DNA of 64,000 nt from Malania oleifera (lineage: Eukaryota; Streptophyta; Magnoliopsida; Santalales; Ximeniaceae). Shown here piece by piece: positions 15,488 to 64,000 of the stretch. Location of the stretch: NCBI RefSeq assembly GCF_029873635.1, contig NC_080423.1, positions 100,006,991 through 100,070,990 on the forward strand, given 5' to 3'. Made by a program: the position numbers and the translations under genes. The notes beneath the pieces are model-generated. The model worked only from the letters and a program-made list of their open reading frames with translations, was not told the DNA's origin and made no database searches. How positions within the stretch are numbered: the first letter of the stretch is position 1; every line of letters begins with the position of its first letter.

Positions 15488-18400
15488 ATGGCATCGAAGT
15501 CCTTCAAACCAACCCAATCATCGTTATCGAATAGTTCAGATGCGTCTGATGTGCATCACAGTAAGCCCCCCCTGCCTCCCACAGTCACATTTGGCAGGAG
15601 AACCTCATCGGGTCGTTACATAAGCTACTCAAGAGATGATCTTGATAGTGAACTTGCAAATACTGACTATATGGTGCACCTACCGCCCACACCCGACAAC
15701 CAGCCAATGCAGGGAAATGGGGATCCTACAATGTCAGAGAGGGTTGAAGAGCAATTTGTGTCAAATTCACTTTTTACGGGTGGATCCCACTGCATACCGC
15801 GTGCTCATCTCATGAACAGGGTGATTGAATCCCACCCGAGTCATCCGCAAATGGCTGGTATGAAAGGATCTCATTGTGCAGTTCCAGGGTGCGACGGGAG
15901 AGTAATGAGTGATGAACGAGGCAATGACATTATCCCTTGTGAATGTGACTACAAAATATGTAGGGATTGTTATTTGGATGCAGTTAAAACAGGTGATGGT
16001 TTGTGTCCGGGATGTAAAGAGCCCTACAAGGCCACAGATTTGGATGAAAAGGCAGTGGACAACACCCGGAATCTCCCGATGTTACCACCTGCTGGGATGT
16101 CCAAAATGGAGAGAAGGTTGTCTTTGATGAAGTCAACAAAGTCAGGGCTGATGAGAAGCCAGACTGGGGATTTTGATCACACCCGGTGGTTGTTTGAAAC
16201 AAGGGGGACATATGGATATGGGAATGCTATATGGCCAAAGGAAGGAAGTCTTGGGAATGACAAAGATGATGGGGTTGTTGAGCCGATGGAATTGATGAAC
16301 AAACCATGGAGACCACTCACTCGAAAACTAAATATACCAGCTGCTGTTCTCAGCCCATACCGGTATGTTTAGTGTTTCATGATGTTTTATCTTGCTGTTT
16401 TCTTCCTTGGGTTTCTTGTGTGCCTTTGTGACGTGGATTAAATAGTCTTACCATTTCCTTTCATGTTTAATGAATTGAATTTTTTAGCTTTCGATCACAA
16501 TCATTTGATGATGTGGTGTGGAGAAAGAAAGCTTTAAACTGGTACCTTCATGCTGCACCAGTTATATGTGTATCAAATGCCTTTAAAAATACCATAGTGC
16601 TTTCAGACTATGAGTTCCAGACCAAAAGTTTTGAGGACTAGAGCAATAATATCAACAAAAAGCCTCAAGACTCGCTACATATAATGTTCATATCACTGTT
16701 TTAAATTATTGTTAACAATTTATTTTTAAATTCAATATTGAAAAATCAAAAATAAAAAAACCATCACATGCAACGCTGATGAATTTATTTTTGAGTTGTG
16801 TGCAAATTCCGGTATCAGTTGTATAATTGTGAAAATGATAGCAAATACTGTAAATAATTTGAGTTCTGTCCTGAGAAAGTGGTCCTGTACAAGATAAAGT
16901 GGCTTCTACCAAAAGCTTTGAAATTATAAATTGTTAATGTGTTCCATTCATGTTTGCAGGCTTCTAATATTTATTAGGATGGTCGCTCTTGGGCTGCTCT
17001 TGGTGTGGAGGGTTAAGCACCCTAACAATGATGCAGTCTGGCTATGGGGGATGTCTGTAGTTTGCGAAATCTGGTTTGCCTTTTCTTGGCTGCTTGACCA
17101 ACTGCCTAAACTCTGTCCTGTTAATCGTTCTGCCGACCTCAGTGTCTTGAAAGAGAAGTTTGAAACACCTTTTATGGAAAACAATGAAAAATCAGATCTC
17201 CCAGGCATAGATGTCTTTGTGTCCACTGCAGATCCAGAGAAGGAGCCACCACTTGTCACCGCAAACACCATCTTGTCTATTTTAGCCTCCGATTATCCAG
17301 TTGAAAAGCTTGCTTGCTATGTTTCTGACGATGGAGGTGCACTTCTAACCTTTGAAGCCATGGCTGAAGCTGCTAGTTTTTCCAATTTATGGGTGCCTTT
17401 TTGCCGTAAACATGGCATTGAGCCCCGAAATCCTGATTCTTATTTCAATTTGAAGAGGGATCCTTACAAGAACAAAATAAAGACAGATTTTGTCAAGGAT
17501 CGTAGGCGGGTAAAGCGTGAGTATGATGAGTTCAAGATCCGGATCAATGGCCTGCCTGAGTCTATCCGACGCCGGTCTGACGCCTATCATGCCCGTGAGG
17601 AAATCAGGGCTATGAAGCTTCAGAGGCAGAACAAACATGATGATGAACCTATGGAGGTTGTGAAGATCCCAAAAGCTACGTGGATGGCTGATGGAACTCA
17701 CTGGCCAGGAACTTGGTTGAATCCAGCTCCTGAGCACTCTAAGGGTGATCATGCTGCAATAATACAGGTATTATTTACTTCCAGAGCTCCTATTATTTCT
17801 GTTTCTTTGATTATTATACGGCTAAGGCTGTTTTATATTGGGTCTGCTAACTACATTGCAGTATATTAGTTTGTAAAGATTATTTAGTGCTCTTTGGCTT
17901 TAAAAAGTGGAAAAGAAGAGTGGATAAAGGGATTAAGTTATACTAGTAGCTGAACATGGTTTTATTAAGTGATGCAGGTGATGTTGAAACCTCCAAGTGA
18001 TGACCCACTGCATGGCACTGTTGATGATTCCAATCTGATTGACCTTACTAATGTTGATATCCGTCTCCCCTTGCTTGTTTATGTTTCCCGTGAGAAGCGT
18101 CCTGGCTATGATCACAACAAGAAGGCAGGGGCCATGAATGCCCTGGTTCGAGCCTCTGCCATTATGTCTAATGGCCCCTTCATTCTCAATCTTGACTGTG
18201 ACCACTACATCTACAACTCGGAGGCCATGAGAGAAGGCATGTGTTTCATGATGGATCGAGGTGGGGATCGCATTTGCTATGTCCAGTTCCCTCAGAGGTT
18301 TGAGGGAATAGACCCGTCAGATCGATATGCTAATCACAACACTGTTTTCTTTGATGTCAACATGCGTGCCCTTGATGGGCTTCAGGGCCCAGTTTATGTT

Positions 18401-19735
18401 GGAACTGGGTGCCTCTTTCGAAGGATGGCCCTTTATGGTTTTGACCCTCCTCGATCAAAAGAACGTTCCCCTGGTCTGTTTGATTGTTGCTTTTCCCGTC
18501 GCAAAAAGAATGGCACTGTTGTTCACACCCATGAAGAGAATAGGGCCCTGAGAATGGGTGACTCTGATGATGACGATTTTAACCTCCCATTGCAACCCAA
18601 GAAGTTTGGGAACTCAAATTTTTTCATTGATTCAATCCCTGTGGCAGAGTTCCAAGGCCGTCCCCTTGCAGATCATCCATCTGTAAAGAATGGACGACCG
18701 CCCGGTGCTCTCACTATTCCTCGGGCTCTGCTTGATGCATCAACTGTTGCAGAGGCAATCAATGCTGTTTCCTGCTGGTATGAGGATAAGACTGAGTGGG
18801 GACATCGTGTAGGGTGGATTTATGGATCTGTTACTGAAGACGTGGTCACAGGATATAGGATGCACAACAGGGGATGGAAATCAGTTTATTGCGTCACCAA
18901 GCGGGATGCCTTTCGGGGGACTGCACCAATCAATCTCACAGATAGACTCCATCAAGTCCTTCGCTGGGCTACTGGCTCAGTTGAGATATTCTTCTCTCGC
19001 AACAATGCCCTCCTGGCCACCCGTAAAATGAAGATTTTGCAGAGGATAGCATACCTCAATGTTGGAATCTACCCATTTACCTCAATATTCTTGATTGTGT
19101 ATTGCTTTCTTCCTGCCCTTTCCCTCTTCTCTGGCCAGTTCATTGTCCAGACCCTCAATGTCACTTTCCTTGTTTATCTCTTAATCATCACGGTTACTCT
19201 CTGTACACTTGCTGTACTGGAGGTCAAGTGGTCAGGTATTGAGCTAGAGGAGTGGTGGCGGAATGAGCAATTTTGGTTGATTGGAGGCACCAGTGCGCAC
19301 CTTGCTGCTGTGCTTCAGGGTCTTCTGAAAGTCATTGCTGGGATTGAAATATCTTTTACTTTGACATCAAAATCAGCTGGTGATGACCTTGATGATGAGT
19401 TTGCTGATCTTTACATCTTCAAATGGACATCTCTGATGATCCCACCAATCACAATTATGATGGTTAACTTAATTGCAATAGCAGTTGGGTTTAGCCGAAC
19501 AATATACAGCACTATACCACAGTGGAGTCGTCTGATTGGTGGTGTTTTCTTTAGTTTCTGGGTTTTGGCACATCTTTACCCTTTTGCTAAAGGTTTGATG
19601 GGAAGACGAGGGAGGACACCGACCATTGTTTTTGTCTGGTCAGGACTTATTGCAATCACCATTTCTCTCCTCTGGGTGGCAATCAGTCCTCCATCAGGTA
19701 CCAATCAAATTGGAGGCTCATTCCAGTTTCCCTGA
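15488..19735 (+). CDS. CSLD: Cellulose synthase-like protein D (CSLD2/CSLD3 group), intact
   Basis: Three exons, 15488-16362, 16960-17767 and 17978-19735, with GT-AG introns and matching phases, encode 1146 aa, normal for CSLD. Residues 1-120 include the CSLD-type [25 protein letters not shown]-like Cys cluster (C130, 135, 151, 153, 158, 161, 173, 176) follows. Transmembrane segments start at about 293-340. The GT2 motifs are all present: DDG (about 415-417), DCD (634-636), TED (847-849) and QVLRW (887-891). A C-terminal multi-span domain ends in GGSFQFP. CSLD proteins are membrane beta-glucan synthases of tip growth and cell-plate formation. The N-terminal sequence favours the CSLD2/3 (root hair) group over CSLD5, but this is by memory, not a tree. 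No defects seen. Confidence 0.97.
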
Positions 19736-21218: not shown

Positions 21219-21977
21219 ATGGCAACTCACATGGTCAACCACTTGGTTCTTCTCCTTGCACTGATATTGCCAGCCGCTCCCACCAAGAGTATCCCTTCGA
21301 GAAGTCAGGACCTTCTTGTTGCCATTGAAGAGATGCAGAGAGCCAACTACTTCACCTTTGTCACTCTGATCAACATGTCCCCAGCCGACCTCTTTCGTGC
21401 CAGGAACATCACTTTTCTGATGCCCAACGATCGGTTGCTGTCGAATGGCATACTCTCAGGAACTGCTATCTCCGACTTCTTGCTCTTGCATTCCATCCCA
21501 TCCCCTTTGCTCTTTGACTATCTTGAGCACATCCCAAGTGGTTCAATCATCCCAACCTCAAAGCCAGAGTTCGTGCTCAAGATCAAAAACCATGGAAGAA
21601 GAAGCTTCTTTCTCAACAATGCAAGGATCATTAGCCCAAACATCTGTATCGCAGGATCTTCAATCCGATGTCATGGCATTGATGGGTTGTTGTCTGCAGA
21701 TAAGTTGACGTCAGAGCATAATTCTACAGTTCCTACACCAAAGTGTCCTAGTAGTAGTCCACCTCCTATTGTTGCAGCAACACCTCCTGCCCTCGTGGGG
21801 CACTCGCCGCCATCATTACCGCCACCTCCGCCCATCGCTCTTAGTCTTACCCCTTTGGTTGCCCCACCACCAGCACGTACGAACGTCCATTCAGAAAAGT
21901 CAGCTTCTTCTCCATGGCCATCTTACAGAGGATTATTGCCCCTAGTGATGCTCTTTGTTTTGGGGTTGTCAGTCTAG
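21219..21977 (+). CDS. Fasciclin-like arabinogalactan protein with one FAS1 domain
   Basis: A single exon encodes 252 aa; the stop is at 21975-21977. The N-terminus (MATHMVNHLVLLLALILPAA) is a signal peptide of about 24 aa. Residues about 28-165 form one FAS1 domain, with the H1-like segment NITFLMPNDRLL and a paired hydrophobic strand (SDFLLLHSIPSPLLFDYL). N-glycosylation sites occur at NMS, NIT and NST. Residues about 170-225 are Pro/Ser/Ala-rich (SSPPPIVAATPPAL, SLPPPPP), a target for prolyl hydroxylation and arabinogalactan addition. The last 18 residues are hydrophobic, consistent with a GPI-anchor signal. Such proteins sit at the plasma membrane and wall and affect wall assembly. It is shorter than two-FAS1 FLAs and resembles the small single-FAS1 group; the exact subclass is not assigned. 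Confidence 0.85.
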   Translation: MATHMVNHLVLLLALILPAAPTKSIPSRSQDLLVAIEEMQRANYFTFVTLINMSPADLFRARNITFLMPNDRLLSNGILSGTAISDFLLLHSIPSPLLFDYLEHIPSGSIIPTSKPEFVLKIKNHGRRSFFLNNARIISPNICIAGSSIRCHGIDGLLSADKLTSEHNSTVPTPKCPSSSPPPIVAATPPALVGHSPPSLPPPPPIALSLTPLVAPPPARTNVHSEKSASSPWPSYRGLLPLVMLFVLGLSV

Positions 21978-23328: not shown

Positions 23329-23590
23329 AAATAGATAGAATTATGCCTTTCTCGAAAGGTTACATCTGTTCAAATCTATTTCATTAACTGTCATTTGCAA
23401 AGTAGATTTCTGAAATTGACTAGGCATCGACCTGGTCGCGTCTTGGTCGACATAGTCTGAAATAGATAGAATTATGCCTTTCTCAAAAGGTTACATTTGT
23501 TCAAATCTATTTCATTAACTGCCATTTGCAAAGTAGATTTCTGAAATTGACTAGGCATCGACCTGGTTGCATCTTGGTCGACAAAGTCTG
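23329..23590. repeat. 131-bp tandem direct duplication
   Basis: Two adjacent units, 23329-23459 and 23460-23590, both begin aaatagatagaattatgcc and end near 'cttggtcgaca.agtctg'. They differ at about seven positions (around 95% identity by eye), mostly transitions. The unit has no open frame and lies in a probable LTR-like or unclassified repeat. Confidence 0.85.
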
Positions 23591-24189
23591 AAATATATTC
23601 AATCTTTCTTTGTGTTCAGTAGGCCTGGTGCACCAACTAAATGCGCCACTAGCGCTCTACAACCCACGCTACGTGCGCACGTGTGTGAGTGTGCAGACGG
23701 TGCGAATGACCGTCCTAGGGTACACTAAAGTACACACTAGCACTATCTTTTAACCAATTTTAACAGATTATTTCACCTTATTATTTATTAATGACTTTTA
23801 ATTTTCCACTCTTTTCAATGTGGGACAAGTCCTCATAACAATAAATGCTCCTCATGAAAGTTTTAGAGAATTTGTAAATGGAAACTTTGAAAAACCCATA
23901 AAATCGATTATTTTAGAAAATATTTCAACAATGGAAAGAAAAGAAGACCCCTTTTCAAGCAAGAGTATGTCCGAGCTTTTTTGCTCTATCGTTTAGAGTA
24001 AGTATGACGTTTATTTTAAAATTAAAATTTTAGACGGAAGTCAGGGATGAGTATCCAATTTGAGAATAAAACTTTAATTTTTAATAAAATATTTAAATTA
24101 TTTTATTGTGCCAACAAACTATTTTGATGTGTTTTATTTCACAAAATGACGCATCATCGACATGTATCTGTTTTTTATGTAGAAAAAAA
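23591..24189. other. Intergenic region, repeat-like
   Basis: It includes a GC-richer segment at 23620-23740 ('acgctacgtgcgcacgtgtg') of the kind found in plant LTRs, and 'caatgtgggacaagtcc' at 23817. No gene and no second LTR were found; classification is open. Confidence 0.35.
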
Positions 24190-25440: not shown

Positions 25441-25513
25441 CTAAGAATATAGGCAGATGCAGCATTCATTCCCTAAAGAGGGCAGAGGGCATTGAACTTG
25501 GAGGGAGATTCTT

Positions 25514-41417
<15,904 letters not shown>

Positions 41418-42236: not shown

Positions 42237-42246
42237 CGGAAAAGAT

Positions 42247-42620
42247 GAGTTTTTTCCCGTTTTATAAAATATAAAATAACACTGGGAAATTTTTTCCCAA
42301 AATAATGCTTACGTAATCTCGCAGCTTCATGCTGCGAGATTTAAACTGGTGGCCACTCTGCCTTCGACGCGTGGCAAAGAGAGAAACAGGGGGCAGGTGA
42401 CGCGTGGCGACGCTTGAAGAAATCTCGCAGCTTCAAGCTGCGAGATTTAATGAGCCATCGAACCGAAACGTGATGCGTGGCTGGGAGATTAAATGAGGTA
42501 TCGAACTGGTGGTGACGCGTGGCGAAAATCTCGCAAGACGAAACTGCGAGATTTGTGCCTGACATCCATCCGCGTGGTGACACGTGGTAAATCTCCCAGG
42601 ACTAACCTGCGAGATTTGCT
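42247..42620 (+). repeat. Left terminal inverted repeat of the MULE, with four hairpins
   Basis: Pairs with 56400-56671. It starts gagttttttcccg and contains four imperfect hairpins built on arms aaatctcgcagc / gctgcgagattt with loops of about 5-8 bases, at about 42313-42341, 42420-42450, 42526-42556 and 42588-42618. The spacers are GC-rich ('gtgacgcgtggcga', 'gacacgtgg'). Confidence 0.85.
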
Positions 42621-44194
42621 TCGTCTGCTGAATTCCTCCCCGAGCCTTCTCAGAACACAAATATTGCAGAGAGAAAAGTTGCAGACCTTCGAGCTTGCAG
42701 AGGACCGTTGCGTTGGCAGGTTACCGTTAGAGGTGCAGGTGACCGTTCGGGCGAAGACGAGGCGAGGCTATTTAAGGGCCGAAGATGGTGTATGTTATTT
42801 ATTATTTAGAAAAAAACGTGAATAATTTATTTAACTTACTGAGATTTACTAAGATTTATTTTATATTTTGAGTTGGTTTGATATCATATTTGTGTTCCGA
42901 CTATTTGGGTTCGTTGCTGCATCTAGAGGAAGGTTAGTTTTTTTAATTAATAATTTCATTAACTTTTATGTATGTAATAGTATTGTATATACTCCGCATA
43001 ATCATGTAAATTTTTAATAATTTAATCTGAATATTCTAAATAAAAAAAAAAGTATATTGATCTAATATTTATGCTTCAAATTTTATCTTCAATATTTTAA
43101 ATTAACATATTCATTAATATCAAAGAAGAAATACTGTTTAGGACATTTGTTTGTTTGTATTTTTTGTATTGTTTGTGGATCTTAACTCACTTTGATAAGG
43201 TTCTTTAATTACAAAATCATTATTAGATGAATTGATCCATAATTTACATTATTTATTATTTGGGTGTACGAGTTATGCGTGTCTCCTTGATCATCAAGTA
43301 TAAATTGAGACAAAGAGTTAGGATAGTTTAACATGTAATAGATATTTACATTATCAAAATGACTTAATTGAGATACTTTTGGCTGTCACACAAACTAAAT
43401 TATTATAAAATTGTGGACGTAGAAAAAGTTAATCATTTACCAATATTTATTATTTATTAGAGTCACATGAAAGAAAATGAAAAAAAATAAAAATTGTTGT
43501 TATTTTTAGACTTCTTATACGAGATAATTATTTAGATGAAAAAATCTAACTCTGTGTTTTTCCGTAATAATTGTTGCACGTTTCACAATAAGTACAAAGA
43601 TTTTTTAAAAAATAACATGAAATAATTTATGAATAAATATCACGAAAATCTAATATGTTTTAATAGTTGCAAAGATAGGAATAAAATTTTCTATTGTATA
43701 ATCTAATAGTAACAAATAAGTTGTAGTTTGTTGATCTATAAATGTTTAATAATAAAGTTAAAAGGTTAAATTTAAGTTAATTTAACTTGTTTAACATTAG
43801 TCTTATATACTCATATTGAGTGTGCTCCATGCCAAAATCATACAAATTTTTTTGTTAGAGTACGATCCGATCTACTACACATTAAAATAATTTTTTTTTA
43901 ATGTTTGGAAGTAATGTGAATATGATAGTGGCATGCATATAAGGTGAAGGAATTATAAGTTAATTATTTAGTATACACTCAATGGCACATGATGTTTTGG
44001 AGCTTTTGAATCTATATTTGAGATATGTATATACATACATACATATATATATATATATAATTAATTTTATTATATAATATAAATATAAAATGTTAATTAA
44101 CTTTTATGAAAGATTAAATAAATATTTGTGACACACGCATTAATTGAAGGCTTGCTTACAAAAAAGTTTCAAAGATATTATATGTTATCTAAGC
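42621..44194 (+). other. MULE 5' internal region
   Basis: It begins with a promoter-like stretch (42630-42800: 'gaggctatttaagggccgaa', a TATA-like tatttaag), then AT-rich DNA that is probably leader intron. No open coding exon was seen before 44195. The open frame at 42493-42825 straddles the TIR and is not supported. Confidence 0.4.
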
Positions 44195-47100
44195 GCAAAT
44201 TTAAATGCCTCCTGCATAGCTGATGCAGTGATGTGAATTGCATGCTGGTAGATATCATAGGTTCTCGCATGCTTAAACTATATTATTATATTGTCTGCAA
44301 ACGTTTAAGGGTCATTGTAAAAATGGGTAAATGTTCAAATTACACTGGCCTGCTGCCAATTCGATACGATTTCTTAGAGAGTGTCAGAATTGCATGTAAG
44401 AATATTTCAAAAAGTGACAATGAACACCTGTAGAGAATTATTGATATTGCACAGTAACGTATTGAAAATAATTTTGTTCACTATCCCTCGCATTTAAACT
44501 TATACATATACATGATTGTGTTGCGTAAGGCTTTTATATTTACCGGGCCGTCAATCTAGAGGCAGGAGTTCAAGCAGTTAGTTCCGTTCCGGTATTATGT
44601 ACATGGGGGGTGGTAATATATTTATAACCGGACCAAAAGCGGTGTTAGTTATAGTATCGCCAGTTCAACCTCTTTAGCATTGGTATAGGAGTAATAAATG
44701 CAGACGAAGCTTATACAAAAGTATTTGCTATTGATCTAAATCAAATGCATTGCGGCTAAACTAGCAAGAAACTAGATTAAGGGGGCCATCATGATACAAT
44801 TTTATTGAGGTTGTTCCATTTAGTGTTTGTAACTAGGGATTACGGTTGCGAATGGTTTGGATGCACACTGCGTAGCGGACGACATATTTGAATGTTGCAA
44901 CTGTGATGTCAAACTCATTTTCCTCAGAGTGTGTTGGTCGCCAGCACATAGGCTTAGTACAGCCGGGAAACCGTATTGAGCTGATGGTTGAGCGTGGAGG
45001 AAGACAAGAAGATGCCACGCGGATGGTGGTGGGGTATGCTGTTGTGTATGAACGAATGTCCAGATCGTCTTAATTCGAGGCACAGACGTACGAAAGATCA
45101 ATAATAATTCATAACGAATTATCATGTTTTTGCGAAGATTAGATGTTTCAGCAGAACAAACCAGGATCGTTGGTCGCTAATTGCGAACAACGCGCTGCCG
45201 TCTGGGATGAACATCGACGAACGATGTTCATTTACAGATAACACGTCCGATGAGGAAATGGTGAAGGGACGAAACGAGGTTCCCCGATGATGTCGACCCA
45301 CCCCCCCCCGGTCAATCGAAACGAATAGGCACGTATACGGCAGATTTCATGGACCGAACCTCCTATGTAATGGTGTGTAAATTGACGTAGATGCTGCCCT
45401 GCAGATTTTGTTTGTCTCCATGGTTGGCACGAGCTTCCCCTATAAAAACTGAAACTCGTTTGGATGAATCAATCAGACTGAGTCAAGGGATTCATTTGGG
45501 TTCGAAAGATCAATTGGATTAGCTTTTTTGTTTGCGAATATAATACCACGCTCGAACGCCACCAGAACTTTCCAACGCTCCTGCAGTCGACTACTCCACT
45601 TATTATGGGTTTTTTAGGTGTAAGAACTCTGAATGCAGTTTGGAGACTGCGTGCCGATGGTAACCGTCAAAACATCATTCTTCGAATCACTCAAATATGT
45701 TGGTCTGCCCCCATGCTTGAAATGAACTCTACTCTGCTCTCGCAACGACAGAGCCAAAAATCACGGTCGTCCCTTCTTGCGAGGAGATTGTGATATGATA
45801 AGGGGTGATGCGTCGACCTCAATCGCTACCAATTTGAAAGAATTCATAGATCGTCGTTTTCGGCTATGCATCGCTATAAGAAAATTGGTTTAGGAAAACA
45901 GAAGGCAATTGGCCCAAGTAATTCGGCGATGTAGAAGAAGTCCTTATCAACGTTCGCCTAGGTTGGAATGGAAGCATGTGCACCGTTTAATAATCCCTGG
46001 TACTTTACTATTGTGCCGTCCAAGTTGGAGGTGGAACCCTATAACCAGTGCAGCGATCAGAACCGTTAACATAATTTGTATCATTCCTTTTGGGCTTCGC
46101 GCATCAATTCAGGGTTTTCCCCCATTTGGTCCTCCTATGGAGATGTATAGATGTTGGACACACCTGTACGGTAAGTACAAGGGAAAAAACTTCCTTACTT
46201 TTGCGACGTGTCCGGATGCAAATATAGGCACCAAATATTTCCCTTTTGCATTCGCTATTTGTGCAAAGGAAAGTTTGGAACACCAATGGAATTGGTTTTT
46301 CTGTGTTTGTCTTTCGTTCCAATTAAACCGATAAGGGCGACATTTGCCTATATAATCATCAATAGGCATCCAGGGATCCACGCTGCAGTGTCGCACAATC
46401 CCGAATTGTCAGCCACCGCGTTCGCACCCGAATTCTTTGCCTTTCGACACCGCACATACGTTTGTAAGCAAACTTTCAACAGAAAGTGCACAGTGTCACT
46501 CTGAAGCGAATGACCTTGACCGGGCCGGGAAGGGACCATCAAGGTTTTTAGAAAGTTTAACCTTAAACATGGGTGATTGAGAAGATCTTCAATGAGGGGT
46601 GGGGGAAACCCGCCGAGACGTTCTTTGAATCAAATCGCGCCTTCAATATTGTGGACTTCTCCAGTGCCACGACGGGGGCAGAAAGGTAATGGAACATGAC
46701 GACAAACCTCGGTCGAATGTTTCCCAACGCCGTCCCTCAAGGGCCGCCTCGTAGCCTCCTAATCACTGCCCTCTTTCATTCTGTGCAACTGGACATTTTT
46801 ATCGCCGTTTTGCAACAATTATTTTTCAACGATCCGATGGGAGGGCTGCGCGTAATGCAATATCAGTGAGGAAATGCATTTAAAACTCCCTCAATATTAT
46901 TGCTTGCCGATGGAAGAGAAGTTGACGCGACCGTACATCGCGTGACGAGTTTCAAAACCGGTCCCTAGGAAAGTACGTTTTATTAGCATCACGAACTGCG
47001 CATGTTGGGACCTCATAAAGGAAAAAGTGAAAAAAAACGCTGGCGCAATTCAGGAATTGCAAAGCGTCCATGCCTTCGTGTGGGAAGTGGCAAAGCCCTC

Positions 47101-49268
47101 CTTACACCTTTCCATCCTCCCCACCTTCTCAGCTGGCAATGTGCGTAGACCCACTTAAAACCAACGCCCATGCAGTACTTGAAGCCTTGTTGGAGCACAC
47201 CGCTGAACTTAATGCGAAATAATGTGGGGTTTTCAAAACCACCGATTACTTTTGCACGAAGGGGAATACTAAGCCAGCATCGTCCGTTGCTTCGACTAAT
47301 ACAGGCAATTTCAGCTTATGCTCGACAAAAGGAAAGTTAAGTTTCCGTCCAAGGAGCCCTCTATACACCAATTGAGATGGGACGCCTAGGGAAAGTAGGA
47401 AAGGGAGCACGTGGCAGTATAATGTCATCAGAAGGGCATAAAATCGCACAAGGTGTCCGACAAGGACCCACTCGGGCGATTGGCAGCGGACCATCGCGTT
47501 GATGTCGTATGCAGTTTAATAACTATTTTCACACAGGTTTTTTTTTTTTTTTTTTGGTATAACCTATTTCTTTCTGATGCAAACGATGCAATTTTTCCAG
47601 GATTGAATCCCCGGGCCCGTTCCGAATCCGAGCGTATTGACAGTGGCCGATCATCACCAAGGGCCCTAAGCCGAGCTTGGACCATGAGGGCATGCGGAGC
47701 CCCTGTGCTTCAGGGGGGCACGCAGTTTTGCCGAGCGTTGTTTAAAGGGCAAAACCCCGCATTGTCCAGCCTGATACGTGAATTGCGGGGTTTTTAATGC
47801 AGATTTATCGGATTGCCTCATAATTCGCTTGCATTGGGCAATCTTGTCCCCAACATCAAATGGTGAGCGATGGGAAGACCCGAGACGCCAACAGTTCCAC
47901 CTACCCTCATGGCGAGGCACCGTCCACATTTACATACAGACTAGCTATTTGTTCCGGTTTTTGCCGATTGAATGGGCGACTGTCACTGGTCGCACTGCCC
48001 AGACAGTGAGGGACCTACAGACCGTCAGGGTTGACTCGCACTGCGTACTATGTGCGAGCGTTGTAGGTGTCGTTCCGGCCTGACAGCGAGTTTGGTTGGT
48101 GGCACGCATCCCGTATGCGTTCCTTTAGGGGGGATGCATTTTTCGTTGAGCTCCTGGCCACATGAGATGTTCAGACGATAGCAATGCCACGCACAGAGCC
48201 CCAACTTTTGTTGCGTTTGATTGGTGGGGGTGATTCTTCTCGGAATTTTTTGGCAATATGCGCATCTGATGTTCCTTCAACTCCTTGAGGGAACTCAGAA
48301 GCGTGTCACTCGTCACAAGTTTGGGGTCCCGCCACTTTTGGCGTGTTTGTAAGGGAGATGTTGTCCGCGCCCCGCGCACGTCAAAAACCACTCGAAGGAA
48401 CACAAATTGCGGGCCCATTCGTTTTACATCAGGGTTGGGCTGGGGAAAGGAGATTTCCTTCATTCAGCTGCCAACTACAGCGGCGGGTTTTCCTCTAGAT
48501 TGAGAGGGGTCAGAAATTGTCCCGGTTGTTCCGCATTGATCCTCCCTCCCACCTCGTATATTGGTTTAGTACAAATTATCTCACCCTTCTCATTCACTCA
48601 ATTAACTATTACGAATTACTAAATTCGTAATTAGGTAGTAGTCTTCCATTTTTTTGGGAACGTTAGTAACAGTTTTTCATCTTATTAAGAATGGAGGGGA
48701 GACGACTTAGGCATTCGATGGGTGGCGCTTCACCACCGTTGCCCCTGTACAGGTTCGAGTTGGACATGCCACCGGGAGCATGAGTATAATCAATTAAAGT
48801 ATAGCACGTGATATTATTTCTTTTCTTTCTTTCAGTTGTGGTATAGTTCCGATATTATTTTTTTTGTTTTGTTCTAACTTGCCAGTTTTATATGATGCCC
48901 CCCGACCCGGATGAGATTTTAGAATCAAAAAAAAAAAAAAAAAAAAAAAAGGCCGACATGCCGTCCTCGCCTTATGTCAGACGGGAAGTACCTGTGGGGT
49001 GAGCCCCGTCGAGATGGCCCCTCAATAAATTGCTTTTTCATACTTATTGAATGGGTAATCTCCCCCCCAAATTGAGTTCATGTCGCAGTTCGGGTTTCCG
49101 ACAAGAGTTCATTCCCCTTTCCGCACCATTTTATGACTTTCGGGGGTAGATATTGTTGGGGAGACGATCTCCACGGGCATGGATGGGCGGGTTCAAGGGG
49201 GGTCACAGACTGGTCGAGGATGCACGCGATATTCAATTACGTCCACTAACGTGGGGAGCATCGGCTAG
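44195..49268. repeat. Direct repeat unit 1 (5.07 kb), error-laden copy
   Basis: It begins gcaaatttaaatgcctcctg and ends in 'gggagcatcggctag'. It covers the MURA coding region (MGFLGVRTLNAVWRLRADGN, GKYKGKNFLTFATCPDANIG readable in pieces) and the first part of the PMD gene. Compared with unit 2 it is about 12% longer, almost entirely through one- to few-base insertions spread evenly, with few substitutions. It has lost every long reading frame. It also has a 25-A run at about 48930-48953 absent from unit 2. Confidence 0.9.
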
Positions 49269-52200
49269 GCAAATTTAAATGCCTCCTGCATAGCTGATGC
49301 AGTGATGTGAATTGCACATGCTGGTAGATATCATCGGTTCTGCTGCTTAAAACTATATTATTATATTGTCTGCAACGTTTAAGGGTCATTGTAAAAATGG
49401 GTAAAGTTCAAATTACACTTGCATGCTGCCCAAATTTCGATACGAATTTTCTTAGAGAAGTCAGATTGCATGTAAGAATATTTTCAAAGTGACAAGTGAA
49501 AAATTTAGAGAATATTGATGCACATTAACGTATGAAAATAATTTTTGTTCACTATTCAACTAGCAGACAACTTATTTACATAAAATTATTGTTTTGCGTA
49601 GGTCTTTTATATTTACCGGGCGTCAATCTAGATGGCAGAAAGTCAAGCAGATTCCGGTTCCGTATTATTGTACATGGGGGGTAAAATTATAACCCAGGAC
49701 AAAGCGGGTTAGTTATATATTTAGCCAGTTCAACCTTTAAGAATTGGCATAGTGAACTAAATTTGCAGTACGAAGATATACAAGTATTGCATATGTGATC
49801 ACTAACTCCAATATGCATTGCGGCTAACCGCAAGATACCCGATTACGGGGCATCTGATACAATCTTTCTATGAGGTTGTTCCTGTAACTAGTGATTACGG
49901 TTGCCGCATGGTTTGGATGCACACGCGTAGGGACGACCTTTTGACTGTGCAACGATGTCAAACTCATTCCTCAGATGGGTGTCGCCGCACATAGGCAGCC
50001 GGGAACGTCTATTGAGATTGTGGTTGAAGCGAGAAGAAGATAAGTGGTTGGTGGGAGCCCTGTTGGGGATATGAACGCATGTCCATGATCGTAATTAGAG
50101 GCACAGACGACGAAGGAAACAAAAAAAAAAACAATACTATTCATACGAATTATAATGGTGTTTCCGAAGATGTTCAGCAGAACAACCAGGATCGTTGTCG
50201 CCTATTGCGGAACAACGCGACTAAGACGTCGGGATGAACATCACGAACGAGTTCATTTACAAGAGAACACGTACGATGAGGACACATTGGTGAAGGGACG
50301 AACGAGGTCCCCGAGATGTCGCACCACCCCCCCCCGGTCAATCGAACGAGGCACGTATACGGAGATTCATGGCAGAACCTCCTATGTATGGTGTAATTGA
50401 CGTAGATTGCCCTGTGCAGATTGCCCATGTGACGAGCTTCCTATACGAGATAAACTCGTTGGGATGAATCATCAGAACTGAGTCAGGGATGCTATTTGGG
50501 TCGAAAGATCAATTGATAGCTTTTGTGACGAATATACCACGCTCGGACGCACATGACTTCACGTTGCAGCGACCCCACATATGGTTGTTAGGTGTAAAAC
50601 TCTGAATGCAGTTGGAGACTGCGTGCGAGTACGTCAGAACAGCGATTTTCGAATCACTCAATATGGGGCGTCTGCACACATCTTAATGAACTCTGCTCGA
50701 CAAGACCATAGCCAAATCACGCGTCCCTTATTGCTAAGGAGTGGTGAATAGATAAGGGGTGATGCGTCGACCTCAATCGCACATGAAAAATCATAGATCG
50801 GTTTCGGCTATTCCATCTTCATATAAGAACAATTGGTTAGAAACAGGAAGGCAATTGCCAAGTATCGGCGATTAGGAGAAGTCTTATCAGACGTTGCCTA
50901 GGTGGATGGAAGCAATGTGCACTTATAATCCTGGTATGTCGTAAGGGAGGTGGAACCCTATACCAGGCAGCGAGCAGACCGAACATTTTATCAGTCTTTT
51001 GGGCGGTTGCAGCATCAATTCAGGGTTTTACCCATTGTCCTCCTATGATATGTATAGATGGGGACAACCTGTACGGTAAGTAACAAGGGAAACTCCTTTA
51101 CTGCGACGTGTCCGGTGCAAATAGGCAAATATTTCCCTGTGCATTCGCTATTGCTGCAAAAAGCGAAAGTTGGACACATGGAATTGGTTTCTGTGTTGTC
51201 TTCGTTCCATTACCGATAGGGACGACATTTGCCTTATATCGATGGCATCCAGGATCATCGAGGCAGTGTCTCACAATCCCGATTGGCAGCCACAGAGTGG
51301 ACGCACCACAGATCTGCATTCGACACGTTGTAAGCAACTTCAGCACGAAAGTGCACAGTGTCAATCTGAAGCGAATGGCTGAGCGGGCGGGAAGGGACCA
51401 TCAGGTTAGAAAGTTTAACATGTGGATGGAGAAGATCTTCAATGAGGGTGGGGAACCCGCGAAGACGTTCTTTGATCAAATCGCTCCTCATATGTGGACT
51501 CAGTGCCACGACGGGGGCAGAAGGTATGGGAACATGACGACAAACCTCGTCGAATGTTTCAACGCCGTCCTTAAGGGCGCTCGTAGCCTCCTAATCACTG
51601 CTCTTGTGCAACTGACATTTTATCGCGTTGCACATTATTTCAACAGCCGATGGGAGGCTGCTCGTAATGCAATATCATGAGGAAATGCATTAACTCCTCA
51701 TATATTGCTTGCGATGGAAAGAAGGAAGTTGAAGGCGACCGGACATCGCGTGACGATGTTCAACCGGTCTAGAAGTACTTTTAGCATCACGACTGCGCAG
51801 TTGGGACCTCATAAAGGAAACAACGTGCAAACGCTGCGCATTCAGGATTTGCACGTCTGCTCGTGTGGGAAGTGGCAAGCCTTACACTTTCCATGCTCCC
51901 ACCTTCTCGCTGCATGTGCGGAGACACGACTTAACGCCATGCAGTACATTGAGCCTTGTTGGAGCACCGCTGAACATTATGCGACATATGTGGCGGATTT
52001 TCAACCGATTATGCACGAGGTATACTAGCCAGCATCGTCGTTGTCGACTATACAGGCAAATTCAGCGTATGCTCGACATAAAGGTCGTCCAAGGAGCTCT
52101 CGTATACACAATGAGATGGACGCTAGGGAAAGTAGGAAAAGGAGCACGTGCAGTATATGTCATCAAGAAGGGCATAATCGCACAAGGTGTCCGACAAGGA

Positions 52201-53788
52201 CCCACTCGGGCGATGCAGCGAGACCATCGCGTTGATGTCGTATGCAGTTTTATACTATTTCACACAGGTTTTTTTTTTTTTTTTTGTATATACCTATTCT
52301 GATGCAACGATGCATTTCCAGGATTGATCCAGGGCCGTCCGATCCGAGCGTATTGACGATGGGCGATCATCACAGGGCTAGCCGAGCGTGGACTGATGGG
52401 CATGCGGAGCCCCTGTGCTGCCGAGGGGGCACGCAGTTTGCCGAGCGTTGGTTAAAGGCAAACCCCCGCATTGTCCAGCTGATACGTGATGCGGGGTTTT
52501 ATGGCATTTATCGGATTGCTCATATCCAGCTTGATTGGCATCTTGTCACATCATTGGTGGAGCGATGGAGACCCGAGACGCACACGTTCCACCTACCTCA
52601 TGGCGAGGCCACCGTCACATTACAGGACGTAGCTATTTTGTTCGGGTTGCCGATTGATGGGCGAGCTGTCACTGGTCGCACTGCCGGACCAGTGGAGGGA
52701 CCTACAGACCGTCAGGGTCGACTCGCACTGCGTACTATGTGCGAGCGTTTGTTAGGTGTCGTTCCGCCTGACAGCGAGTTGGTTGGTGCACGCATCCGTA
52801 TGCGGTTCCTTGAGGGGGATGCATTTCGTGAGCTCCTGGCACATGCAGATGTTCAGACGATAGCATGCCACGCACGAGCCCACTTGTTGCGTTTGATTTG
52901 TGGGGTGATCTTCTCGGATGTTTTTGGCAATTATGCGCATCTGATGTTCCTTCCACTCCTTGAGGACTTCAGAGCGTGTCACTCGTACAGTTGGGGGTCC
53001 GCCACTTTGGCGTGGTTGTACAGGGAGATGTGTCGCGCCGCGCACCACTCGAAGACACAAATTGCGGGCCCCCTTCGTTTACTCCAGGTTTGGGCTTGGG
53101 AGAGATTTCCTTCATTCGCGCCTACGCGGCGAGGTTTCCTATAGATTGAGAGGGGTCAGGATGGTCGTCCGATTGATCCTCTCCCACTCGTATATTGGTT
53201 AGTACAAATTTTATCTAACCCTTCTCATTCACTCAATAACTATTACGAATACTAATTCGTAATATGTAGTAGTCTTCCATTTGGGAACTTACGTTTCATC
53301 TTATAAAGATGGAGGGACGACTTGAGGGCATCGATGGTTGCGCTTCACACATTGCCCTGGTACAGGTTCGAGTTGGACATGCACCGGGAGCATGAGGTAT
53401 AAATCAATTAAAGTATAGCACATGATATTATTTCTTTCTTTCTTTCAGTTGTGTATAGTTCCGATATTATTTTTGTTTTGTCTAACTGCAGTTTATATGG
53501 ATGCCCTACACGGATGAGATTTTAGCCGACATGCCGCCTGCCTATGCAGACGGGAGGGACCTGTGGGTAGCGCGAGTGCCACTCATATGCTTTCATATTA
53601 TTGAATGGTATCTCCCCGATTGAGTCATGCGACAGTTCGGGTTTCGACAGGTCATTCCCGCCCCATTTATGACTTCGGGGGTAGATATTGTTGGGGACGA
53701 TCTCCACGGCATGGATGGGCGCGGTCAAGGGGTCACAGACTGGTCGAGGATGCACGCGATATTCGTCACTACGTGGGAGCATCGGCGA
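49269..53788. repeat. Direct repeat unit 2 (4.52 kb)
   Basis: It starts with the same 20 bases as unit 1, with no spacer. The part up to about 51330 is also frame-broken and noisy. From there on, the MURA and PMD frames are long and coherent, and the sequence continues past the end of unit 1 into the rest of the PMD gene. Confidence 0.9.
49900..52235 (+). pseudogene. MURA-type transposase of the MULE (unit 2)
   Basis: The N-terminal half is readable only in pieces because of frame breaks before about 51330. There are MULE transposase signatures near 51048-51090 (IDG-HLYGKYKG) and 51170-51260 (LDTWNWFLCCLRSI, then D-RHPG). The C-terminal half is one frame: HVVSNFSTKVHSVNLKRMAE, LVECFNAVLKGARSL, a SWIM finger (CSCGKWQALHFPCSHLLAAC, about 51856-51915) and a CCHC knuckle (CSICHQEGHNRTRC, about 52149-52190). 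In-frame TGA at about 51678 and TAG at about 52026 interrupt it; both are one C-to-T or G-to-A step from likely CGA and TGG codons. Some N-terminal frame breaks may be sequencing error. Confidence 0.85.
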
Positions 53789-54601
53789 GACTACATCGTA
53801 CGAGGGGTGGCGGAGCACAGTCCGATGCGTCTAGATGACCCATACTTCACTTGGTATAGGTCTATCACACGCCGCTTCGTCGACAGGACCGCAGCTGTAT
53901 ATTTGAGCCTCGTAAGAAGATTAATGCCAGAACTCATTTTATTATATATACGTTCCGATTTGAATGCGTTAATAATATATGTTCATATCCTGCAGGCTGA
54001 CATAGTCATTGAGGCAGACCAAATCTCGTCGAATCCTGCGATCCACCAATTGATGAGTGCTGCACTAGACCTCGTCCACGAGGACGATCGACAGATCTCA
54101 GAACGAGGAGGTCGACCTGATGTACCAACACGAGAAGGTCAACCAGCTCCAATACAAGGAGGAGGACATGCCTCCTCTAGTCGTCCAGGGACTCCCATGT
54201 CCTCCCCACCAGTCGTACAGGCCGAGTACTTATTCGGCCCGTCAGCGCCTTATGCACCTTCCACTGCAGCTCATATTGCCGGACTATCGAGCAGACCGAC
54301 TGATGCCGCATCCGACTCTGCTGCTACCCCATCCATGTCATTTTTATTAGACGATCTTTTCGATGGGGTGGGGGTCGATGCACCCCCTATGCCGCCTCGT
54401 TCTCTTCCCGAGACATCGTATCATTTCTCACCGCGTGCGCTCCACATGGCTGATGATGATGATGCAGCACCTCTTGGTGGAGAGGATTCACATCCAGCAC
54501 GACAGGACAGAACACCTGATGATGCTGACGAGCAGGGAGAGGGTAGACGCAGATGGCAGCCATCACGACCCCGGAGACGACCTCGCTGCGGCACGGAGTA
54601 G
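52302..54601 (+). pseudogene. Plant mobile domain (PMD, MAIN-like) gene carried by the MULE
   Basis: Exon 1 (52302 or 52359 to about 53135-53200) encodes GFYGIYRIAHIQLDWHLVTS, LVERWRPETHTFHLPHGEAT, VTLQDVAILFGLPIDGRAVT and LRLICGVIFSDVFGNYAHLM, the PMD fold also found in MAIN/MAIL1 and PP7-long-form proteins. Likely exon 2 is 53309-53396 (WYRFELDMHREHE), exon 3 53492-53911 (LICFHIIEWYLPD, then MRQFGFRQVIPAPF, WSRMHAIFVTTWEHRRDY, DDPYFTWYRSITRRFVDR) and exon 4 53996-54601 (ADIVIEADQIS and a Pro/Ser/Asp-rich tail). One TGA at about 53618 sits where the family has Arg. The exon 1 donor is uncertain. The 84-bp third intron is a multiple of three and open. In MULEs the PMD protein is a passenger of unknown role; its host relatives act in silencing and meristem maintenance. 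Confidence 0.8.
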
Positions 54602-56399
54602 TTTAGCATTATTTTAATTGCATTTTATTTGTATGTATATCAATGATTGTTTTGATTTCATTTGTATATAATTGATTCTTTTTTTTATTCTTTTGTATAT
54701 ATCATTTAATAATTCGTATCTCTAAAGAATTCAATACTGTCAAATATAAAAAATGACACATAATTCGTATCGCTAAAATTTGCATGTCTAGTTAAGTTAA
54801 TTCCTTAAATTGAATTGTCTTTTACTGCAAAATTCGTGTCGCTAAAATTTGTATGTCTGCATGCATTTACGTGCGTCGTCAGATCCAAACGTGTTTCAGT
54901 ACTCTAAACATTTACACGTTAACCTGCCCTCACCGCCATATACTACATGCACCGAAAATCTTAGGGAGCACTTAATATATGTTCTCTCCATTAAACTCCT
55001 AGTTAATTTGTCTTAAAGTATATTAATTAATTACGTATATTAATTTTAATAAAAAAATATTATTGATTAAGTGATATATTAATTTTGAGAGTATGTATAT
55101 CCTTAATTAAAGTTTATTTCATGATTTCTCTAAACTTATACTTTAATTGACTATCCAAATTTAAAGTTCAAACTTCATGTAGTTACAACATGTAAGAATC
55201 GTTAATTTTGCATTTGAATTTAAATTTGTATAATTAGAAAAAGTTTAGTATGGTTTTCTCTACATTCATGAAAATAATATTTTAAGAAATTAAATATATA
55301 TAAAATAAAAATATATTTTAAATTTTTTATATAAATTTAGAAAATAAAAAATTAATTTGATATTTTTACAATTATTTGAAAAATTAAAAATATTTGTTTC
55401 CACACGCAAATAATGTTACATCTTTTTTTTTATCTTTTAATTTTATATAAATAATATTGTACTTTCATTTTTACACACATGCGTCAAGGCGAGAGAGGTC
55501 CAATTTTTGAACTTGAAAGAAAATAATAATAAATCTCGTTCTCATGAAATATCCCTGCCTTCTTCCTCCTTTCTCACAGTGCAGGTTATTATTAACTTGA
55601 AGCGCAACCTGGCAAATTGAACTATATATTCTGTGTTTTGAATATTTCATATATTTTAATTTAGCGATAGACATGCCTTTTGTCAAAGGAATTGTAGAGA
55701 TAATTATTATTTTTGTTTTTTAATTAGACTCAATTTTTTAAAAATTTAATTATTTTAATATGAATGGGTGACTAAGACAAAAAAGCATTCTAATAATAAT
55801 TCAATTTGATTCAAATCCTACTTTCAAACACCAAAAGGATGGGTCAAAATAATTGATTTAGTATGCGGATAGTCAAAATATAATAAAAAAGAGTAAAAAC
55901 AAAAAAATTAAGACGTACGAAGAGGTATTGATGCTGCTATTATCTTTCATACACTCCTTAGAGAGACTATATGCATGTAATATAATATTTATAATTACAT
56001 ATGTAAAAAAAATTTTGTTCGGTCTCTAATCCACTCATTTTAAAATATCATTTTATTAAGGACAAATTTTGTTATTCCACATGCATTTAATAGTTAACTG
56101 ACAAAATAATCATTTCGTCAATAAAATTCAATTATAAGAAATTTTGTAGTAATTTTTGTAAATTCAGGGGTTAGAATCATATTTTGAAATTTTTTTTTGG
56201 ATTTTATCCAAATTTTTATGACAAAATACTTATTTATAATCAATAATTTCTTTTATGTAAATTTTTTTAAAAAAATTATATATTTACAATTTAAAAATTA
56301 AAATTTAAGTTTAAATTATATTTTTAAGGAAAAGTTATGATTAAATTTATTAAAAGGGAATGTTTATTATTTAAATTTAAATTTGCAAAAAAGGGGAGT
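54602..56399 (+). other. MULE 3' internal region
   Basis: The PMD 3' UTR probably ends within 200-300 bases (T-rich, 'tgtatatcaatgattgtttt'). Then AT-rich DNA without a supported gene runs to the right TIR. The minus-strand frame at 55471-55686 is not supported. Confidence 0.4.
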
Positions 56400-56671
56400 A
56401 AATAGAGCCAGAAATCTTGCAGGACTAACCTACGAGATTTTCCCACTGTCACGTGTCACCACCGTGTTCGTCTGAGTCTTTAAATCTCGCAGCATGAAGC
56501 TGCAAGATTTTCTCTGCACTCTGCCACGCATCAGCTTCTCATTGGCATCGCTTTTAAATCTCGCAGCATGAAGTTGCGAGATTACGTGAGCATTATTTTG
56601 GAAAAAAATTTCCCAATCAGAGTGTTATTTTATATTTTATTTGTTTTTAATTATAAAACGGGAAAAAACTC
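56400..56671 (-). repeat. Right terminal inverted repeat of the MULE, with three hairpins
   Basis: The complement of the left TIR, ending cgggaaaaaactc. Hairpins with arms aaatctcgcagc / gctgcgagattt lie at about 56413-56441, 56483-56511 and 56552-56582. It is about 100 bases shorter than the left TIR, having one hairpin-spacer unit fewer. Confidence 0.85.
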
Positions 56672-56681
56672 CGGAAAAGAT

Positions 56682-61816: not shown

Positions 61817-62514
61817 CAAGGCGCCTATCATATACTAATACAATGAAAACAACACTCAGACATCCCAATCTCTCTCCTTCCCCTCACATCCATACAAATT
61901 ATACTAATTAGTCTAGCCGAGAGAGAAAGAGATCAAGAAGAGAAGATAGTGATCCTCTTCGTTTCAATTTTTTATTCTAAAATTTATTTTTTCTGTTTAA
62001 AAAAAATAATGATTGAAATGGAAAATTGAAGTTCCACGACCACAATAGAATCAAGTTCCAACACAATTAAAACTAAGAATCACGATGACTAGATGAATAC
62101 GGCAAGAATTTAAAATAAAAAATTAATGAAATTAACGCAACATTTAGAAGCATAAATTTCTGACCTTAAATTTGGATCTGCATGAATTTAGACAAATTTT
62201 AATAAAATTTTATATTATATCTCATCGAATCCAATACAACTCTAAATTCAAGGTCTCTGCAAACATAGGGTAAATGTTTTCATAAAATATAGTCTTAACT
62301 TCTGTCACCACTAAAATAATCAACAAGCTGAATCTAATAATTAATGATTCCACGCTTCTATTCAGTGATTACAAACTGAGAGCATATGCAGCGTTAAGTT
62401 AGAAGTAGATGCAGTGCTTTCGTTTGGCCTCCTGACATCCGGACGCCAACTTGGGGGTGTCCAAGATGTGAAATATAACTGGGCATGTTTCATTTGGAAA
62501 TGGATGAGGGAGAC
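61817..62514. other. Spacer and 3' UTR of kinase copy B
   Basis: 61822-61930 continues the duplicated promoter segment ('ctatcatatactaatacaat'), but no gene follows it. An AT-rich MITE of the 13605 type lies at about 62165-62265. The 3' UTR of copy B, transcribed leftwards, should occupy the last 100-200 bases before 62515. Confidence 0.45.
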
Positions 62515-63958
<1,444 letters not shown>

Positions 63959-64000
63959 CTACATAAACAGTAAAGACTTACAGAAAAGATGGACAAAACA

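Follow-up and report, generated by a model that had tools for sequence, protein, structure and literature searches.

A very probable unpolished gap fill, with two error-rich reads of one locus joined end to end, as the source of a 5 kb direct repeat within a MULE of Malania oleifera

The window analysed here (64,000 nucleotides; G000:C7:100006991-100070990) contains a MULE whose interior is assembled as a 5 kb direct repeat with two adjoining units. It is highly probable that this duplication is an assembly artefact, in which two error-rich reads of one locus were concatenated across a gap of about 1.92 kb, and the repeat and its broken genes are almost certainly not biology. Self-BLAST of the window returns one strong direct repeat, 44195-49268 against 49269-53789, with 78.9% identity, and the edges of this match bear out the preliminary description, in which the two units abut at 49268/49269. 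By the coordinates of that description unit 1 has 5,074 bases and unit 2 has 4,520, a difference of 12.3% that agrees with the roughly 12% reported. The units differ by more gap openings (387) than mismatches (320), with 773 gap bases; global alignment yields 410 indel events confined to unit 1 (270 of one base, 83 of two bases) and 131 confined to unit 2 (110 of one base). No stop-to-stop frame in unit 1 exceeds 146 aa. Another repeat of the same window (25888-26969 and 62945-63997; 80.3% identity by self-BLAST) was taken as a control and has 162 mismatches and 19 gap openings. In its full extent the control repeat joins 25501-26969 with 62506-63997 in direct orientation, the copies being 76-80% alike and differing mostly by substitutions, as in normal divergence.

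The preliminary description had placed the repeat inside a MULE, and 44195-53788 does lie within an element flanked by target-site duplications. The element (42247-56671, coding strand +; 14,425 bp as assembled) has inverted ends of which the outer 21 bases are identical (GAGTTTTTTCCCGTTTTATAA); the self-match of these ends, 42247-42345 against 56671-56553, is 80.7% over 119 columns, in keeping with the terminal inverted repeats of a MULE. The flanking duplications, both CGGAAAAGAT, occupy 42237-42246 on the 5' side and 56672-56681 on the 3' side and are identical at 10 of 10 bases; target-site duplications of MULEs are 9-11 bp long. Because this perfect 10-base duplication flanks the whole of 42247-56671, the repeat-bearing MULE arrived as one insertion. 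The clean part of the element encodes a SWIM zinc finger and, in the open frame 52242-53144 (+), a plant mobile domain (PF10536, E 4.5e-53); a second frame there has a match below the Pfam cut-off. A MULE transposase domain (PF10551, E 4.1e-13) was found in the family copy L016, in the stretch equivalent to the noisy part of the window, as was a DBD_Tnp_Mut match below cut-off; three noisy window frames from the transposase part gave no match to the domain profiles against which they were run.

The family is abundant: scoring 40 of 1,269 candidates in the genome (1.494 Gb) listed 42 matches to 51400-53700, and those outside the window have 93-95% identity. Among the places listed, C3:18.82 Mb, C12:80.39 Mb and C9:64.55 Mb match the whole of 43200-44300 at 96-97% and nearly the whole of 55400-56672 at 93-96%, and the remaining ones match these two segments piecewise. 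Partial copies also occur as inverted close pairs (G000:C2:151078896-151082466 and G000:C4:79757937-79763293). The ends of the window's MULE (42315-42616 and 56483-56566) carry repeated AATCTCGCAG / CTGCGAGATT motifs, some of them forming short hairpins by eye; within the window, exact copies of these motifs are confined to the ends of the MULE.

Alignment of the window to ten other MULE copies shows where the indel noise starts and stops. An event was kept if at least 85% of the copies used agreed against the window, and between five and ten copies were offered by region: seven of ten in the 5' parts of the units, where L013, L014 and L017 diverge or are truncated and were left out, and five of ten for 42247-43879. 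The left part of the MULE (42247-44344, +), which takes in the opening 150 bases of unit 1, is clean, with two single-base window-specific indels and none in 43884-44344. The span 44345-51312 holds 500 window-specific indel events, and the right part of the MULE, examined from 51319 to 55000 (+), holds none. Substitutions of the window relative to the copies continue through both clean sides. The noise falls into two stretches separated by the unit junction: noisy stretch 1 (44345-49268, +), with 316 insertion and 71 deletion events, and noisy stretch 2 (49269-51318, +), with 41 insertion and 72 deletion events, the last indel lying at 51312. There is no N in the window, and near 44345 and 51312-51318 the noise begins and ends in the manner of contig edges. 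These points do not coincide with the edges of the units: unit 1 opens with 150 clean bases, and in unit 2 the noise covers the initial 2.05 kb. The preliminary description let the noise begin with unit 1 at 44195; given that 44195-44344 carries no window-specific indel, its onset has to be moved to about 44345. The same description had unit 2 equally noisy up to about 51330 and then abruptly clean: the abrupt end is confirmed, and the likeness to the noise of unit 1 has to be given up, the insertion:deletion counts being 41:72 versus 316:71 (Fisher p = 2.8e-19).

The noise of unit 1 has the signature of sequencing error: it is dominated by insertions, Poisson-spread, blind to reading frame and sharply bounded. 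Over the 2,470 bases of clean unit 2, unit 1 shows 62 substitutions (2.5%), 54 deleted bases (2.2%) and 410 inserted bases (16.6%) in 226 events. Insertions per 100 bases have a mean of 9.1 and a variance of 9.2. One- to few-base insertions are evenly scattered and substitutions few, as had been described; the length of the insertion is a multiple of three in just 22 of the 226 events. The inserted base equals its neighbour in 128 of 155 one-base insertions, versus 44% by chance, a figure to which alignment ambiguity contributes. Unit 1 also has a 30-base insertion with a run of 24 A (48922-48951, +), which is missing from unit 2; the local alignments of 48900-49268 to each of the ten copies begin at 48952. 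Natural copies of the family behave otherwise: across the same stretch the median per pair is 126.5 for substitutions and 11 for indel events, with at most 0.19 indel events per substitution among 250 sampled pairs (38 of 39 copies used, one being too short). These copies and the control repeat uphold the premise that natural divergence consists mostly of substitutions. With 278 indel events and 62 substitutions against clean unit 2, unit 1 has an indel:substitution ratio more than 20 times the highest found among natural copy pairs. In its error profile the noise of unit 1 resembles that of PacBio continuous long reads. Reads of that type are not typically rich in deletions, unlike the noise of unit 2; therefore the two stretches may differ in platform, or one of them may be half-corrected.

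Underneath this noise the two units carry the same genotype. All 13 substitutions that are private to clean unit 2, being present in none of the 37-39 copies read at those sites (39 loci in all, a site being scored if read in at least 20), are also present in unit 1. Clean unit-2 variants carried by one to three copies recur in unit 1 at 27 of 29 sites, the other two being gaps, and other minority variants of clean unit 2 are shared at 25 of 27, with a third base at two. Sites polymorphic among the ten aligned copies (less L017 throughout, and less L014 within the gap stretch) were scored where both units carry an allele known from the family, noise bases new to the family being excluded. The two units have the same allele at 81 of 81 such sites in the clean stretch and at 43 of 44 where both are noisy, in all 124 of 125, versus an agreement of 52-57% from copy to copy. 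Family-discordant substitutions of noisy unit 2 are shared by unit 1 in 8 of 42 cases on a strict event list (about 0.5 expected by chance); a direct base count finds 21 of 41 shared, with four more unaligned in unit 1, and 21 of 61 from the side of unit 1. The strict list undercounts sharing through alignment noise, because in the clean stretch it recovers 24 of 38 such substitutions, though 36 of 38 bases agree. Unshared substitutions in the noisy stretch are read as sequencing substitutions. The shared locus variants therefore leave two readings of unit 1: a second, error-laden pass over the same locus, or a duplication so recent that divergence has not set in.

The second of these readings is improbable. 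In it the plant would carry a genuine 4.5 kb tandem duplication of very recent date within the MULE; the assembly would have failed there, and the break would have been closed with raw reads. Tandem copies do break assemblies, and a very young duplication would be expected to show no true divergence that could be detected between its units, as is the case here. The behaviour of the noise at the proposed false junction (49268/49269), where self-BLAST edges and noise changepoint together suggest that the template jumps back by about 4.5 kb, is unexpected for one read crossing a real junction. A changepoint scan over the insertion:deletion balance of the 500 events, which is blind to the position of the junction (the alignments were made separately on each side of it, with the same copies and settings), has its optimum at 49315-49341, 47-73 bases away, with a log-likelihood ratio of 41.6. 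The interval that holds the junction itself, 49253-49315, reaches 40.8, and the maximum of 1000 shuffles is 8.0. The switch from insertion-rich to deletion-rich noise thus falls within about 75 bp of the junction, which points to two reads joined end to end. Noisy unit 2 holds no changepoint of its own: 1213 of 2000 shuffles score at least as high as the best candidate there. Noisy stretch 1 has a second one at 44845-44876, reached by 0 of 2000 shuffles: in the early part of the stretch (44345-44860, +; about 500 bases) insertions and deletions are balanced at 20:20, and after about 44860 they stand at 296:51. The balanced beginning counts against a single read for unit 1, and may come from a third read or from a contig edge that was half-corrected.

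The other copies of the element give the size of the gap and likewise weigh against a real duplication. The clean edges 44344 and 51319 lie 1,915-1,928 bases apart in seven copies (L009, L010, L011, L013, L015, L016 and L018) versus 6,974 in the window; the right edge of L012 is deleted, the left edge of L017 is aligned elsewhere, and the left alignment of L014 ends 9 bases early (its distance would be about 1,906), so these three were set aside. Measured from the equivalent of 43200 up to the 3' end, the closest full copies listed are 8,425 (C3), 8,361 (C12) and 8,331 (C9) bases long, versus 13,473 in the window. None of the three has the extra length, and the excess over them, 5,048-5,142 bases, is about the 5,074 of unit 1. 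Among the 42 matches listed (40 of 1,269 candidates scored) there is no other side-by-side pair on the same strand, the close pair on C2 being inverted. Were the young duplication nonetheless real, it would mean that a single transposon copy had been rearranged internally in a new way.

Concatenation of two reads of one locus accounts for the structure as follows. A single MULE insertion would have been interrupted by a break in the assembly, with about 1.92 kb missing between the clean edges 44344 and 51319; the clean segment 42247-44344 would be the end of the left contig and the clean part from 51319 the start of the right contig. On copy coordinates, noisy stretch 1 runs from the left edge to about 2.47 kb past the right edge, and noisy stretch 2 begins about 150 bases before the left edge and ends at the right edge; the whole gap is spanned by each of them alone. 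Two uncorrected long reads of the same locus, each spanning the gap, would have been used as fill: the first (44345-49268, possibly two reads) would extend rightward from the left contig and overshoot by about 2.47 kb into sequence of the right contig, and the second (49269-51318, raw or half-corrected) would extend leftward from the right contig and overshoot by about 150 bases into the left one. The reads would then have been joined end to end with their overlap undetected, and the patch left unpolished. The analysis shows directly where the noise begins and ends, its type and its switch at the junction, the shared genotype of the units, the single insertion and the excess of length over sister copies; we infer from this that each stretch is one read, that the assembly broke inside the element and that a gap was filled, and likewise infer the platform. 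The earlier proposal of a gap filled with raw single-molecule reads is supported by the sharp noise edges, the Poisson-spread and frame-blind indels and the identical genotype of the two units.

A raw read of another family copy, misplaced here from elsewhere in the genome, is a very improbable source of unit 1. The abundance of the family, with 42 matches listed from 40 of 1,269 candidates scored, makes misplacement plausible in principle, but unit 1 holds every one of the 13 substitutions that, across all copies read, occur at this locus alone. Searched against the genome, unit 1 finds unit 2 as the best match listed (81%), followed by the C12 copy (78%), with 40 of 648 candidates scored. 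At the 76 sites where the C12 copy differs from clean unit 2, unit 1 has the unit 2 base at 70 and the C12 base nowhere, the remainder being four gaps and two other bases. The C12 piece compared begins at 51638 and so covers 10 of the 13 private sites, and it has none of those 10 substitutions. On the private sites, the C12 comparison and the genome search, another family copy among those read or listed was rejected as the origin of unit 1.

Decay of unit 1 into a pseudogene after an old tandem duplication would suit the lack of a frame above 146 aa and the 78.9% identity with unit 2, and is nevertheless refuted, its probability being negligible, by the want of independent divergence at 124 of 125 family-polymorphic sites and an indel:substitution ratio beyond 20 times the natural maximum, while the noise edges also fall off the unit edges (150 clean bases in unit 1, 2.05 kb of noise in unit 2). 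The changepoint at the junction disfavours a patch made of one uninterrupted raw read. A read with a missed adapter yields an inverted repeat, and this reading was dropped because the repeat here is direct.

The practical consequence is a warning about quality. Gene models, pseudogene calls and copy counts drawn from G000:C7 100051335-100058308 (window 44345-51318) are untrustworthy, as are insertion-age estimates and structural-variant calls that use it, whereas 42247-44344 and 51319-55000 look reliable. Distrust had previously been advised for 44.2-51.3 kb; the advice stands for 44345-51318 and can be lifted for 44195-44344, where no window-specific indel was found. The approach requires an assembly alone: indels are gauged against other family copies, substitutions private to the locus reveal a same-locus origin, and a changepoint in the type of noise locates the read join. 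It could be applied to any repeat-rich assembly for which reads are lacking.

Outside the MULE, the window contains neighbouring clean frames in 15488-19735 with a RING-type zinc finger (E 1.4e-18) and cellulose synthase matches (PF03552, E 2.4e-80 and 2.7e-290), which are probably exons of one CesA gene. The cellulose synthase and plant mobile domain matches mark the DNA as that of a plant. A fasciclin domain match at 21219-21977 lies just under the Pfam cut-off (20.1 versus 22 bits), two tandem copies of a 131-base unit, 95% alike, occupy 23329-23595, and 34312-35544 (-) encodes a hAT-like transposase RNase-H fold domain (PF14372, E 1.7e-28).

The element family has a MULE transposase domain and a plant mobile domain; MULEs with such domains are known, and fusions of PMD to MULE transposases are reported for several grasses and Amborella (PMC5418596). 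Gap closers able to fill with raw reads exist (PMC6324547), and the use of raw reads as gap fill would liken the patch to greedy long-read gap closure of the PBJelly or LR_Gapcloser type. The nearest class is the homotype false duplication, a term of the Vertebrate Genomes Project (PMC8081667, PMC9516828); in PMC9516828, homotype duplications are attributed to accumulated read errors, and false duplications are classified by read depth and k-mers. The likeness lies in a duplicate that would stem from long-read errors, not from a haplotype difference, and the genotype is the same in both units here (13 of 13 private substitutions, 124 of 125 polymorphic sites, 0 of 76 sites in favour of C12). 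A difference is that the duplicate here sits within a single scaffold of chromosome size, the window being free of N, and that both halves of the join are noisy. Judged from the sequence of the assembly alone, the repeat fits the class of homotype false duplications and unpolished gap fills.
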